Shown one piece after another: positions 44,867-49,434 of a DNA stretch of 64,000 nt (position 1 is its first letter; the number at the start of each line of letters is the position of its first letter). The position numbers and the translations under genes are program-made. This stretch comes from Mariniblastus sp. (GTDB lineage Bacteria; Planctomycetota; Planctomycetia; Pirellulales; Pirellulaceae): NCBI GenBank assembly GCA_022447555.1, contig JAKVBF010000002.1:62001-126000 (forward strand), written 5' to 3'. The notes under the pieces were generated by a model, which saw only the letters and a list, made by a program, of their open reading frames with translations, searched no databases and was not told where the DNA came from.

Positions 44867-45328
44867 TCAACCACGATTGGCTTGATTGACACCCGTGCGA
44901 CGTGCTTCTTTTGCCAATCGGAAAGCCTCGTCTTCCCCAAATACTGAGACGGAAAACGAGCGAGTACGGCGGCGACCGTGGCCGTCGGTCCATTGGGCGA
45001 CCCAATACCAATAATGAAATTCGTAATCGCCTCGCGAGTCAATTTGCTTGTGACGCCGAACACCCACAACGCCAGATCGATTTCGAATTGAAGGTTTGCG
45101 AGCCAACTCTTTGACGGTGTATTTCTGCCACGCTCGCTCTAGGCTGTCTCGGAACTCTTTAGCAGCCAGCAGAGATTTACGTTGTCCGCCGAAAAGGTTG
45201 TCCCCAAAATACTTCGCCGTTTTCCGACCGCGCCTCTGAATACGGACTTCCCATCCGCCAAAGGACCGACCGGCGTCATTCTTTGTCTCGATACGGCTGA
45301 TATTCCGTCTTGGATTTTTTCTGGCCAC
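44867..45328 (-). CDS. AP2-like DNA-binding protein
   Basis: 153 basic residues in two similar halves, about 8-60 and 84-140. Each runs from a GGWEVRI or YWVAQW core to an aromatic/Gly turn (KYFGDNLFGG, SFSVSVFGEDEAFRLAKEAR). The second half matches AP2-type domains in phage homing nucleases and bacterial regulators (SGVVGVRRH ... YWVAQWTDGHGRRRTRSFSV). Likely DNA-binding with no enzymatic domain attached. The GTG start is preceded directly by an in-frame stop, so it is the earliest possible start. Confidence 0.65.
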   Translation of the reverse strand: MARKNPRRNISRIETKNDAGRSFGGWEVRIQRRGRKTAKYFGDNLFGGQRKSLLAAKEFRDSLERAWQKYTVKELARKPSIRNRSGVVGVRRHKQIDSRGDYEFHYWYWVAQWTDGHGRRRTRSFSVSVFGEDEAFRLAKEARRTGVNQANRG

Positions 45329-45422: not shown

Positions 45423-46439
45423 TCATTGTGCGGAGGCGCGGAATCCATTGGGACCACCCGAGATCAACTTGCCGAATTGTAACGGCCATGTAGCGATTTG
45501 AAATCCCTTTTCGCGCAAACGTTTTTTGAGCGATGGTAAATCGTCGTAAGAATCTGGGTAAACCCAAATGGAAATAGTGGTTCGCTCGGGTTGCAATCGA
45601 TCCAATCGAGCTAAAAATTCCGAGCCGCTTGCGACAGCTTCTTTTGCCGACTCACCGGTCTGACTAGAAAGCGGCCTTAATACGAAATGATCAAACTCTG
45701 TCACTCGACGCTCGACGGGACCCATCTCGGTATCCATCGTTAACTGCCGGGAAGCCAATTTATATTGAAGACGAAAGTCTCCAATGGGGCCAACGGTCTC
45801 GTAGGTGTTGTCGGACCGCTGCAACTTTTCTGCTTTCACTTTCCATTCGGATTTCATTCGTTCAATTAATGCATCCATCGGTACAAAGGTTATCCGGCCA
45901 GCCATCAATTGAAAATGAACTTCGTCCGAAAACACCGTCTTGGCAATCGGCGTTGGAAAATGTTCAATTTCCTTTATTTCAGTGGCGTTTCGGGAAGGGA
46001 TCGCCGCGATATTCTTCTGAGTCGATGCAAGCTGGTATTGCAGCGCATCCAACTTAGCCGTCGTTTCAAGTCGCTCCTGCTCTGCCGCATTTCGTTCTAA
46101 ATTTCTTTTTTTCAACTCATCCTTCACGAGCAACATTTCGACCATCATGGAATGTCGCTGTTCTTGGAGGCGGTCTACAATCGACGCTTGACCTGCAATT
46201 TTCTTTTCGATTTCATCGTTTTCCATCTGACGACTTTTTGCATCCTTCGCCGTTTGCACCAATTCCTGCCGAAGTGATTTAAGAGCTTCTTCGTGAATCG
46301 TGTTTTGCTGCTTGTCTTGAGTCCAAGACGATTGAGCCTGAGCGCCCACCAGCACGACGAGAATAATAAGAATCCCTACTAGGTTGGCGACAATATCTAG
46401 AAACGAATCTTGGCCGGCATTGAGATCTTTGGGCTTCAT
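45423..46439 (-). CDS. ExbD/TolR-like membrane protein with the membrane Asp
   Basis: 338 residues. The N-terminus GQDSFLDIVANLVGILIILVV is one membrane segment with an Asp at residue 15, at the position of the proton-carrying Asp of ExbD/TolR/MotB. It is followed by a long coiled-coil (about 45-150, Glu/Lys/Gln rich) and a periplasmic domain (FHFVLRP ... ISIWVYPDSYDD ... GFQIATWPL). Third gene of the ExbB-like operon; its ATG overlaps the previous stop (ATGA). Planctomycetes often carry such pairs; their function is not established. Confidence 0.8.
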   Translation of the reverse strand: MKPKDLNAGQDSFLDIVANLVGILIILVVLVGAQAQSSWTQDKQQNTIHEEALKSLRQELVQTAKDAKSRQMENDEIEKKIAGQASIVDRLQEQRHSMMVEMLLVKDELKKRNLERNAAEQERLETTAKLDALQYQLASTQKNIAAIPSRNATEIKEIEHFPTPIAKTVFSDEVHFQLMAGRITFVPMDALIERMKSEWKVKAEKLQRSDNTYETVGPIGDFRLQYKLASRQLTMDTEMGPVERRVTEFDHFVLRPLSSQTGESAKEAVASGSEFLARLDRLQPERTTISIWVYPDSYDDLPSLKKRLREKGFQIATWPLQFGKLISGGPNGFRASAQ

Positions 46440-47980
46440 TTCTCAACTCCTTCCACGGCCAGGCCGCTTCCTTCTAATAATGATAGGAGCTGTTCCATTC
46501 TCTCCTCGGCACCTTCGGCCACCGTGAATCGAAGTTCTGGAACCCAGTAACCGTTGGCCCCTGTGACACCCCACGATTCAATCATTTTCCAAATTGCATC
46601 AATCATTGAGTCCACGGAAAAAACTCGGTCTTCGTCCCAAGCAATGCTTACTCGATCAGCCGAAGGACCGGCCCCCATAATCGAAATCTCGTCGTTCGAG
46701 CAAAACACTCGAATGGGTCGACGATAGCCTACCGCGCCAGGCGTTCTGGAGGGTAATGCCCAGTTTTCCCCTCTCTGTCTGGCTAAACTGGTTGGCGAAG
46801 CGGTCCCATTTTGCTGTCGTTCCGTACCGTCTTGGCCAACCCCTTGATTCGGGCCGTTGTTTTGAGATTGCCGAGTATCACGAAAAGATCTCGATCCTTC
46901 CGCCAACGCTTCCCCTCGACCCCGTGCTCCCCGATCACTCGATCGCTCCGACCCAGCCAAGCCGTCGCTCGTTTCACTGACAAAACCTCCCAGTTGCCGT
47001 GATGCTCTCATTCCCCCGGTCGGCGCCATCGTCCGCTGATGATGGCTGGCGGTCTGAACCGCAATTCGATGAGCCATCAGCCGCTGCTGCTGCTGCATTG
47101 AAATGGCAACGGCTTTTCGAATCGCTTCGGACAACTGGGGATCTGCGTCACCATATGCCAATGTTTTATCTGCCGAGATCAGCTCGTAACCAAATTCGTC
47201 ATCCCAGTCGCGGATTGCATGCCTAGCTAGGACATAAGACTCAGCGCCATCGGGACGAACGACCAATAACGGATACGGTTTTCCCCTAACCGCCTCGAGG
47301 TCGTATCTCAAAAAATATTCGCGCACCGTGAGCAACGCAGCATCCAATGGATTTTGTTCATGCACAGGAGCCGCAAAATCTTTGAGCTCCATTTCAATCC
47401 GATAAGGCTGTAATATCAATTTATCCTGACGGCACTCAATATAGACGGGCATCCGAGATTCACCCCCTGCGCCGCCGTGAGGCACAATCGAATACATCAC
47501 CGGCTGATTGTCTACGGCTTGAGCCGCTTTCACTTCCAACTCGGCGAGTGACTCAGCTAATCTTGACTCGACCTCCTCAATCTCTTTACGAATGCTTTCG
47601 AGGTCGGTTTCCACCTGAGTGTGATCCTGACGCACGAGCTGCCGAGCGACCAAGGTCGCTTCCTCATTCAACTTGGCAATTTCATTTTCCAAGTGAGTGC
47701 GCGTGTCTCGGACCAATTGCAACCGCTCTACAAGTTCCGGCCGCACCTGCGCCAGACCTTCCGATCGCGTTCGCTCGAAGTCAAGCTGGTCACTCCATTG
47801 CCTGGCCTGCTCTTGAAAATTCTGCTCGTCCATTTGCTTGGTCTTTTGAGCACTCTCATCCGCGGCCTTCACGGCCAGAACAAGAAGGATGACCAGCACG
47901 CCAAACGTGCAGATCAGCACCGCAAGAAAGGGAAAGAGAGATACCGCAAGGGTTTCACGACGGCGTCGAGAACGTCTCAT
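46436..47980 (-). CDS. ExbD-like membrane protein lacking the membrane Asp
   Basis: 514 residues. A basic N-terminus (RRSRRRRE) is followed by a membrane segment SLFPFLAVLICTFGVLVILLV aligned to ExbD, where the key Asp is replaced by Ala 20. Then come a coiled-coil region (about 45-150), a periplasmic domain (PVYIECRQDKLILQPY, PLLVVRPDGAESY), a Gln/Gly/Ser/Arg-rich linker of about 120 residues and a small C-terminal domain (DRVSIAWDEDRVF). The ATG at 47980 overlaps the ExbB-like stop by 4 bp. A longer upstream frame is unlikely. Confidence 0.8.
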   Translation of the reverse strand: MRRSRRRRETLAVSLFPFLAVLICTFGVLVILLVLAVKAADESAQKTKQMDEQNFQEQARQWSDQLDFERTRSEGLAQVRPELVERLQLVRDTRTHLENEIAKLNEEATLVARQLVRQDHTQVETDLESIRKEIEEVESRLAESLAELEVKAAQAVDNQPVMYSIVPHGGAGGESRMPVYIECRQDKLILQPYRIEMELKDFAAPVHEQNPLDAALLTVREYFLRYDLEAVRGKPYPLLVVRPDGAESYVLARHAIRDWDDEFGYELISADKTLAYGDADPQLSEAIRKAVAISMQQQQRLMAHRIAVQTASHHQRTMAPTGGMRASRQLGGFVSETSDGLAGSERSSDRGARGRGEALAEGSRSFRDTRQSQNNGPNQGVGQDGTERQQNGTASPTSLARQRGENWALPSRTPGAVGYRRPIRVFCSNDEISIMGAGPSADRVSIAWDEDRVFSVDSMIDAIWKMIESWGVTGANGYWVPELRFTVAEGAEERMEQLLSLLEGSGLAVEGVEK

Positions 47981-49434
47981 ACCGCTTTTTTCTGCGTCTG
48001 AGAGACAAATGAATCCACCGAAATTGGTCGCGCGCCCGACTTCCAACCTACTGGATGATTGGAACCGCCCTGAAAAACGTAGGAGCGATCGGAAACACCG
48101 GATTCAGGTTCGACGCCCGAGAGGGTTTTGGTTCGCTCTATTCGAGAAAGCGAAGCAGCTATCTGCTGAACTGTTTCCTGCAGAAGCTTGGAGCTTGCCT
48201 GTGAATCCTGCCTCGATGGACCACTTGCATAGGAGGCTTTGGATTCGTTGATTTCCTTTAGCAATTCACTGAGTGCCTCCGACTGTCTCATAAGCTCAAC
48301 TTGGTGACTCGCCATCGAGCGAGCGTTATCTGAAAGCGTTACTTGCCATTGCCCCCATCGATTACTCATGGATTCGTCTGCGTCTCTGATATTCTTTCCA
48401 ATCGCTTTTTGAAGATCGTCTACCACGGTGGCAAATGACTCTCTTAAGCTGGAACTTACCAGTTCCTGTGATTCGGATATTCTCTTGTGCCACGCGGACT
48501 CAGCGGTTTGAATGGTGGATTGCCAAACCTCTGCCTGCCTCTGGACCAGTTCTTGGGAGCTCGCCATAACAACCCGTCCCATTCGTTCGATCGCCAAAGC
48601 GCTGGGATCCATATCTGCAGCTTTGGGAAAAGATTCGGCAAATTCATAGACAGCTGTTTCATCCACTAACGATAATAATTGGTTCTCGAATCGGTCCACT
48701 AGAAACTGAAGGAACATTAGTACAATTGAAAGCGTCAGTGCCAACGCCGTCGTATCAAACGCCACATAGAGACTGCTTCTAAGTCCGCCCATCATCTGTT
48801 GAAAGTCGTTCTCGGGACCGACCTGAATCCCACCCAATGCCTGAGAGATGCCCAAGACGGTGCCCAAAAACCCTAGCATTGGAGTCGCCCAAACTAAAAT
48901 CTGTACCAACGAATAACGTTGCTGCTGTCTCTCAATATCCAGCTCTGCTTGGTACTTCAGGTCGTCCTCGATACCCCGGGTCGAGTTGCTGCGTTGTATA
49001 AACAGCAGCCCTTTTTCAAGCCGTTGCCAAAGATAGTGGCCCTGAAACCGGGAGGGATAATCTTGCAAGTAGCGATTGAGTTGTGCCGCTTTCTGCCCGG
49101 CCGAAGGAACCGGTCTATCCAATACGTCGCCTAAACCGGTCGCAGTTCTCGGCGGAACTTTGGGCAGACCGGGAAAACGAATATGATTGCATGCTCGAAA
49201 CTGAGCAGCGACATTCCCCGCAATAAGGGTTAGCGCAGCCAAACCAATGCAGAACATCGCTAGAGTGATTTTGGAAATCGGATGACCGGTCAAATAACGG
49301 CGTAGCGTTTCATTGGTTACAAACTCCTGCTCGATCAGAAAGGAAATACCCAAAAAGAGCGTCAAACCGAGGCAGACCGGAATCACCAAAGCTGGCAGTG
49401 TCTGGATCCAGTTGAATCTACTATCCTGGGTCAT
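47977..49434 (-). CDS. MotA/TolQ/ExbB-like proton-channel protein
   Basis: 485 residues. Four predicted membrane segments at about 14-34, 54-75, 175-200 and 223-246. The third and fourth carry the family signature ATPMLGFLGTVLGISQALGGI and SSLYVAFDTTALALTLSIV, with conserved Thr for proton passage. A cytoplasmic helical tail of about 230 residues follows. It should form a stator ring with the two downstream ExbD-like proteins. The frame is open to 49665; ATG 49434 is chosen because a membrane-helix N-terminus fits there, but the ribosome binding site is weak. Confidence 0.82.
   Translation of the reverse strand: MTQDSRFNWIQTLPALVIPVCLGLTLFLGISFLIEQEFVTNETLRRYLTGHPISKITLAMFCIGLAALTLIAGNVAAQFRACNHIRFPGLPKVPPRTATGLGDVLDRPVPSAGQKAAQLNRYLQDYPSRFQGHYLWQRLEKGLLFIQRSNSTRGIEDDLKYQAELDIERQQQRYSLVQILVWATPMLGFLGTVLGISQALGGIQVGPENDFQQMMGGLRSSLYVAFDTTALALTLSIVLMFLQFLVDRFENQLLSLVDETAVYEFAESFPKAADMDPSALAIERMGRVVMASSQELVQRQAEVWQSTIQTAESAWHKRISESQELVSSSLRESFATVVDDLQKAIGKNIRDADESMSNRWGQWQVTLSDNARSMASHQVELMRQSEALSELLKEINESKASYASGPSRQDSQASSKLLQETVQQIAASLSRIERTKTLSGVEPESGVSDRSYVFQGGSNHPVGWKSGARPISVDSFVSQTQKKAV

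Follow-up and report, generated by a model that had tools for sequence, protein, structure and literature searches.

A planctomycete ExbB-like gene trio as a candidate proton motor with two unlike axle partners and a second acid on axle or ring

How many protonatable sites does a rotary motor with a five-subunit ring and a two-chain axle (a 5:2 motor) need, and must both axle chains carry one? The question is raised by three overlapping genes in a 64,000-nucleotide stretch of a Mariniblastus sp. genome (assembly GCA_022447555.1, contig JAKVBF010000002.1, positions 62,001 to 126,000; hereafter the window), which encode a MotA/TolQ/ExbB-like protein (P3) and two single-pass membrane proteins (P2 and P1), with an acidic residue at the membrane site of P1 and an alanine at that of P2. 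In solved motors, the two axle aspartates differ in their environment: one is in contact with a ring threonine and the other faces a cytoplasmic cavity (PMC12215075). In the turnstile model the two axle sites are half a cycle apart and the motor advances in 36-degree steps, a ten-fold symmetry held to be 'almost certainly' universal in 5:2 motors (PMC9389320).

We propose, at a probability of roughly 60%, that the trio is a motor driven by the proton-motive force, of the ExbBD, TolQR, MotAB and Zorya kind, in which P3 would be the ring, P1 and P2 a heterodimeric axle in its pore, and a second acid would be located on either the axle or the ring. The features concerned are the following.

47977..49434, minus strand: P3, MotA/TolQ/ExbB-like ring protein by resemblance, 485 aa; ring Asp227 (AFDTT), pore threonines 192/228/229, long C-terminal part
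46436..47980, minus strand: P2, Ala-form single-pass putative axle partner, 514 aa; Ala20 in the membrane helix, helix to about residue 157, beta-alpha domains at about 177-317 and 417-513
45423..46439, minus strand: P1, Asp-form single-pass putative axle partner, 338 aa; Asp15 in the membrane helix, helix extending to about residue 146, a single beta-alpha domain in the periplasm
47977..47980, minus strand: ATGA overlap of the P3 stop and the P2 start
46436..46439, minus strand: ATGA overlap of the P2 stop and the P1 start

The trio and the membrane site of its partners

The genes lie in the order P3-P2-P1 on the minus strand, from 49434 to 45423, with an ATGA overlap at each junction. A preliminary description of the window had reported just such an arrangement of an ExbB-like gene and two genes for single-pass proteins, and both the coordinates and the match of P3 to Pfam MotA_ExbB (PF01618; 45.9 bits against a cut-off of 22.9, E 5.8e-12) bear it out. 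Leaving aside the type II set introduced below, 108 of 126 trios had the exact 4-base P3-P2 overlap, a count slightly favored by the script, which picked the methionine with the gap nearest to -4. The P3 family profile had as its best solved match ZorA (8qyk, E 1.6e-4), with TolQ and MotA weaker and amid generic helical matches. P1 and P2 matched no Pfam family above cut-off, and neither matched ExbD (PF02472) at E <= 1, the whole-genome search with which returned nine other loci only. Coil, keratin, and SMC matches in the library searches were set aside as generic helix matches. Among the relatives entering the pattern scan described below, the nearest P2s from named genomes came from two Mariniblastus, at 59 and 58% identity.

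The P1 proton site is Asp15, in GQDSFLDIVANLVG, and its P2 counterpart is Ala20, in SLFPFLAVLIC. This correspondence, first proposed from the letters alone, was recovered by a profile-profile alignment of the P1 and P2 families that was made blind to it (97.3% probability, E 2e-11), which placed Asp15 opposite Ala20 and Gly22 opposite Gly27. The P1 site was Asp in all 111 distinct relatives, and the P2 site was non-acidic in 116 of 119 (Ala 109, Thr 5, Ser 2; Asp in the other 3). In the motif-free subset, P2 had Ala in 66, Asp in 3, and Thr in 1 (n = 70), and P1 had Asp in 68 of 68. The claim that the second partner lacks a membrane acid thus holds for nearly all relatives, and none of the 119 had any other Asp or Glu in the stretch from -5 to +16 around the P2 site, which covers the membrane segment. 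P2 also conserves Gly at +7 (119/119) and Pro at -3 (117/119), the latter matching TPMID of the ExbDs of the same genome. That Ala would occupy every P2 site was our first idea, overturned by the three Asp-form P2s. As a separate observation, P1 has D11 one turn ahead of the proton Asp and N19 one turn behind it, each in 111 of 111 relatives (window 46439-46380); Asn replaces D11 in the P1 of one genome, G280.

Within the window's order the trio is a core module, and it is one in part of the class as well. All 60 genomes searched from the order, the window's own included, had P2, although some of these matches were partial at contig ends (e.g., G004, G005, and G032). In a sample of 196 genomes from the phylum, strong P1 and P2 matches fell in the same 14 genomes and were adjacent in 14 of 14, in agreement with the pairing that had been claimed; four of these genomes belong to the window's order and ten to family f21 of the same class, from which 11 were sampled. 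P1 was unseen in 12 of the 145 distinct trios analyzed below; for all 12, the sequence fetched ended at most 206 bases from P2. A P2 match was found in 285 of 296 genomes of the order, a figure that includes matches to a second trio.

This second, paralogous trio accounts for part of the weaker phylum-wide matches and is present in the window's genome too (contig C11, L038:6619-9896). It combines an ExbB-like protein bearing an N-terminal stretch that by eye is zinc-ribbon-like with a Ser-form partner, LFPFLSILACVIG, and an Asp-form partner, DSLLDTMTNVVG, and an adjoining gene resembles, by eye, a YchF-type GTPase. The P2 site was Ser in 13 rows (redundancy included), after a 14th row in the same score band (L073, with Ala) was left out as a first-kind P2 cut off at a contig end, while the P1 site was Asp in nine paralogue rows and the ring had Asp in 11 of 11 distinct sequences, the same rule as in the first trio.

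The ring match to ZorA raises the thought of a Zorya-like anti-phage defense system, to which P3 also bears a resemblance in PADLOC (ZorA, E 1.7e-4). However, PADLOC returned no ZorB for P1 or P2 at E <= 1 (no ZorC/ZorD scan of the neighbors was made), and the presence of P2 throughout the 60 genomes, with P1 and P2 largely inherited by family, is unlike mobile defense, such that we consider this explanation very improbable.

Ring position 227 and the exclusion of acids

The preliminary description had pictured a silent second partner. The non-acidic P2 site stands, but it is accompanied by an extra ring aspartate that had not been seen. In the first set of P3 relatives, T192, T228, and T229 were each conserved in 114 of 114 and D227 in 109 of 114. 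The pore threonines were aligned by eye with ALITT/ALLTT of the canonical ExbBs of the same genome, which have a hydrophobic residue (Ile or Leu) in column 227; four of the five canonical exbB loci of this genome (L086-L089, on other contigs) carry two ExbDs, and the membrane Asp is present in nine of nine ExbDs.

In the three genomes with an Asp-form P2, the ring read AFNTT or AFNTS, and a view of these loci as differing just in the linkage of the ring gene was dropped once their Asn227 was recognized. An Asn-ring query against 296 genomes of the order gave two peaks, with 19 genomes at 368.9 bits or above and the next at 186.3. We refer to these 19 as type II. All have Asn227, with Asp at the P2 site in 17, Glu in one (G274), and Ser in one (G266), and Asp at the P1 site in 19 of 19. 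The Glu suggests that the acid matters, not the particular letter. Both threonines are not fixed in type II rings, as four of 19 read AFNATT and one AFNTS. A further genome, G293 (77% complete), has a P2 with Asp and no ring that we could find, and stands outside the counts that follow.

The combinations of P2 site and ring residue 227 were tabulated over 145 distinct trios, derived from 212 loci by counting identical P2 stretches once. These comprised 65 trios from motif-free searches, 47 from a scan with a pattern containing LFPFLAVL (which kept 80 of 451 relatives), and 33 from the type II queries and their matches; P1 Asp was entered by hand for the 19 type II trios, after being seen in all 19. 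The pairs were Ala/Asp (116), Thr/Asp (5), Ala/Ala (3), Ala/Gly (1), Ser/Asn (2), Asp/Asn (17), and Glu/Asn (1). Both acids were present in none of the 145, where in genus g244 the Asn ring is counted as the partner of P2 despite an adjoining older ring. A non-acidic P2 had a ring with Asp227 in 121 of 127 cases, and the 18 acidic P2s all had Asn227 (Fisher test for exclusion, p 3e-18, uncorrected for kinship). The asymmetric pair with a single membrane acid, as originally conceived, is the usual case, but it is not a fixed one, given the relatives with Asp or Glu in P2.

At least four of the six g244 genomes (G370, G428, G378, and G386) retain, next to the Asn ring, one of an older type with a decayed AFDTT region (MQFIAQ, LDMIAA, LAAIGQ, or LAIVGQ). 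The older ring (L267, L268, L270/L301, and L273/L302) is possibly a structural or heteromeric ring subunit. Separately, the four trios with Ala in P2, Ala or Gly at ring 227, and no second acid (L159, L178, L190, and L253) share Gln231, four residues past 227.

Because of its neighbors and of the acid swap, we infer that Asp227 is on the proton path, and an acid on the ring has a precedent in GldL, whose glutamate E49 is essential (PMC8986121). Alternatively, the residue may serve in packing or hydrogen bonding and have co-evolved with the P2 side chain while carrying no proton, an explanation that concerns 227 only and would be compatible with a heterodimeric axle. Asp and Asn are isosteric, six trios manage without a second acid, and 227 lies two residues ahead of the threonine aligned with the canonical pore threonine and may face sideways. 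On the other side, both P2 and the ring switch between acid and non-acid, Glu as well as Asp occurs, and the canonical rings of the same genome, which serve two axle Asp, have a plain hydrophobic residue at this position. We regard the packing role as a serious alternative, with odds nearer one in three than even.

Changes of the acid state among families

The 19 Asn rings formed one clade (SH-aLRT, the Shimodaira-Hasegawa-like approximate likelihood ratio test, 100). In a P2 tree with the site masked, the type II P2s fell among Ala-form sequences from families f7 and f14 and a part of f2. The P2 acid state underwent seven changes on the tree of 81 rows and six on that of 31 rows. A single clade of acid-side P2s was rejected by the approximately unbiased (AU) test on the 31 rows (log-likelihood 157 lower, p-AU 8.8e-31). 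The P1 tree, built without G294 and G370, for which the P1 pieces fetched scored below the limit, concurred (one clade, log-likelihood 105 lower, p-AU 5e-5). The ring tree and the larger P2 tree covered a subset of 73 of the 145 trios, and the AU tests 31 rows.

The contrast between the single ring clade and the dispersed P2s and P1s suggests that the P2 site follows the ring across families, with P1 and P2 apparently inherited largely together by family and the ring type crossing between them. The acid state of P2 appears, from these trees, to have changed several times, each time together with one distinct ring lineage. The ring could have crossed families by transfer, or an ancient duplication could have been followed by differential loss; the latter is possible because at least four g244 genomes keep a ring of the older type.

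On this basis we offer a broader claim that we hold tentatively and at somewhat shorter than even odds: the trios may form a natural class of rotary proton motors with an obligate heterodimeric axle, a single proton-binding Asp, and a second acid that is movable between axle and ring and has been switched several times by evolution, with each ring subunit accounting for one proton step and a full turn for five.

The shaft, the proposed mechanism, and known motors

The long helices and periplasmic domains that the preliminary description attributed to both partners are present in the AlphaFold models. P1 (predicted local distance difference test, pLDDT, 85) has helices at 10-39 and 45-146, then one domain, and P2 (pLDDT 79) has helices at 16-120 and 127-157, then two beta-alpha domains, with a low-confidence linker. 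The modeled coils reach approximately 100-120 residues past the membrane, or 15-18 nm if fully helical, and in the window 149 residues of P1 and 162 of P2 separate the membrane site from the first residue conserved in the periplasmic part. The lengths of the P1 and P2 coils were correlated (rho 0.83 over 132 loci; 0.79 over 20 family medians), while the control, P1 distance against the P2 linker, gave rho -0.18. A single coiled coil built from P1 and P2 would be expected to show such covariation, two homodimers less so. Regarding the periplasmic fold, weak uS11-like matches for P2 and nothing coherent for P1 were obtained and were not used; in a comparison of fold lists only, no vWA structure was among the 50 matches listed for either protein.

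Two other arrangements of the same proteins must be weighed here. One would have two motors share a ring protein, with P3 and P1 homodimers active and P3 and P2 homodimers inactive or gated by sodium or a signal. Sequence alone leaves homodimers possible, as a review also does for AglQ/AglS (PMC9389320), but the P1 and P2 genes are paired one to one, their coil lengths shift together as separate homodimers would not need, and a P2 homodimer without acids would leave the axle with no site for protons; we think this distinctly unlikely. In the other, P1 homodimers would fill the pore as ExbD and TolR do, and P2 would stand outside the ring as a force transmitter like TonB or TolA, a kind of partner that the Ton and Tol motors possess (PMC12215075). 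P2 is indeed the longer protein, with a second periplasmic domain and the low-confidence linker. Yet it is a homologue of P1 whose site aligns with the proton Asp and which keeps the Pro at -3 and Gly at +7 of ExbD, and His occurs in the membrane segment of one of 119 P2s, in contrast to the conserved His of TonB and TolA (the SHLS type; PMC12204202). Moreover, the P2 site covaries with a ring residue beside the pore threonines and accepts Asp or Glu, for which there is no evident need in an external helix. This arrangement seems unlikely too, though a little less so than the two-motor one.

The pairing of P1 and P2, the alignment of their sites, the exclusion of acids, and the covariation of the coils together argue for one heterodimeric axle in the ring pore. 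Several points weigh against the reading as a whole or in part. Judged by helix geometry, residue 227 might not point into the pore. The six of 145 trios with neither acid indicate that a second acid is not always needed, and the decayed older ring of G428 keeps Asp in column 227 (ALDMIAAT, both threonines lost), which would be a case of both acids if that ring were the partner of P2; its locus, L268, is among those dropped when identical P2 stretches were counted once. Sampling of the 145 trios was not random, and the 65 from motif-free searches outside type II were Ala/Asp in 64 and Thr/Asp in one. The groups in the AU tests were defined after a tree had been viewed, neither these tests nor the change counts give a direction (gain versus loss), and a sign test restricted to well-supported branches had four contrasts, 3.8 concordant and 0 discordant (p 0.125), which is too few. 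Among sister-like pairs, the coil contrast was weaker (rho 0.40, p 8e-4); where both lengths differed, 21 of 33 pairs agreed in sign. Helices of matched length are also compatible with two homodimers. Finally, neither the P1 nor the P2 model had a PDB match at E <= 0.001.

From the patterns above we infer a stoichiometry, a placement in the pore, a complex, and a cycle of proton transfer and rotation, along with a cellular role, as follows. P3 would make a pentameric ring, and one P1 and one P2 would constitute the axle, with their membrane helices together in the ring pore and their coils of matched length building a shaft into the periplasm, where the large terminal domains might hold or push an envelope partner. 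The motor would require the P1 acid and, in most lineages, a second acidic function at either of two places: on the axle in type II (P2 Asp or Glu, ring Asn227) or on the ring in what we call type I (P2 Ala, Ser, or Thr, ring Asp227), to which the window motor would belong. In the latter, only P1 would take an axle proton at this site, and ring Asp227 would most likely replace the second site. The single axle Asp would then meet each of the five ring Asp once per turn, giving five proton steps of 72 degrees and not ten of 36.

The surroundings of the trio provided no clue to its function. Clustering of flanking open reading frames from 118 distinct loci yielded only unrelated-looking genes, and neighborhood as a guide was rejected. 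The two largest clusters were opposite-strand shadows of the trio itself, and Pfam searches with ten cluster representatives recovered PTPS, QueC, class-III aminotransferase, SAM hydroxide adenosyltransferase, HTH_17, and AP2, with four lacking a match. Downstream of the trio in the window, on the same strand, is a small AP2-domain protein (44867-45328; PF00847, E 5.2e-11), the cluster of which was present in 30 of 118 loci. As to essentiality, ExbB, ExbD, TolQ, and MotA were absent from the main text of a transposon-directed insertion sequencing (TraDIS) paper on Planctopirus limnophila (PMC10632474).

Compared with the 5:2 motors, the trio has the ring family, the pore threonines, and the P1 Asp, but not an Asp on both axle chains. 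Its resemblance to ExbBD and TolQR lies in a MotA/ExbB-type ring with pore threonines, a single-pass partner with a membrane Asp, the Pro at -3 in P2, and the canonical loci with double ExbDs in the same genome. Unlike those systems, it has two dissimilar partners outside Pfam ExbD, long coils, a P2 without Asp, and ring Asp227. In Zorya, ZorAB shares the ring resemblance, the P3 profile aligning into the C-terminal tail of ZorA, whereas P1 and P2 lack a ZorB match and the trio is conserved across an order. The other systems were compared by description. AglRQS, the gliding motor of Myxococcus, likewise has one MotA-like and two MotB-like proteins, but a membrane Asp is predicted in both partners and the review passages on it describe no ring acid swap (PMC9389320). 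GldLM shares an acid in the ring protein (GldL E49, PMC8986121) and a shaft, of 18 nm (PMC9389320), but the key Glu of GldL is in transmembrane helix 2, and the axle of the trio retains one Asp. Heterologous TolR-like and TPH-vWA pairs have been reported as unlike partners beside a TolQ-like gene, including in bacteria of the Planctomycetes-Verrucomicrobia-Chlamydiae (PVC) group (PMC12204202). The TPH-vWA partners differ from the trio in having an Asp pair, one per monomer, and vWA domains, while the trio may or may not be among the TolR-like pairs of PVC bacteria in that paper.

An unlike pair of partners had been presented as a departure from known motors, a view overtaken by the published AglQ/AglS (PMC9389320) and the heterologous TolR-like and vWA pairs (PMC12204202); since such pairs are in print, a heterologous pair alone is not new. 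The swap of an acid between ring and axle was not reported in the open-access literature (preprints outside the scope), judging by titles and abstract openings among the matches listed. What appears new relative to the literature found is that the axle usually has a single acid, that the ring carries an extra one, and that the two arrangements have been swapped repeatedly.

These findings bear on the number of protonatable sites that a 5:2 motor needs and on whether both axle chains need one. A single homologous motor offers natural versions with a single-acid axle, a double-acid axle, and a ring acid, with repeated switches between them, making the question testable. If true, five proton steps per turn would contradict a universal ten-fold symmetry of 5:2 motors (PMC9389320). 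As read from sequence, the trio would also supply a testable mechanism for what may be a core machine of the planctomycete envelope.

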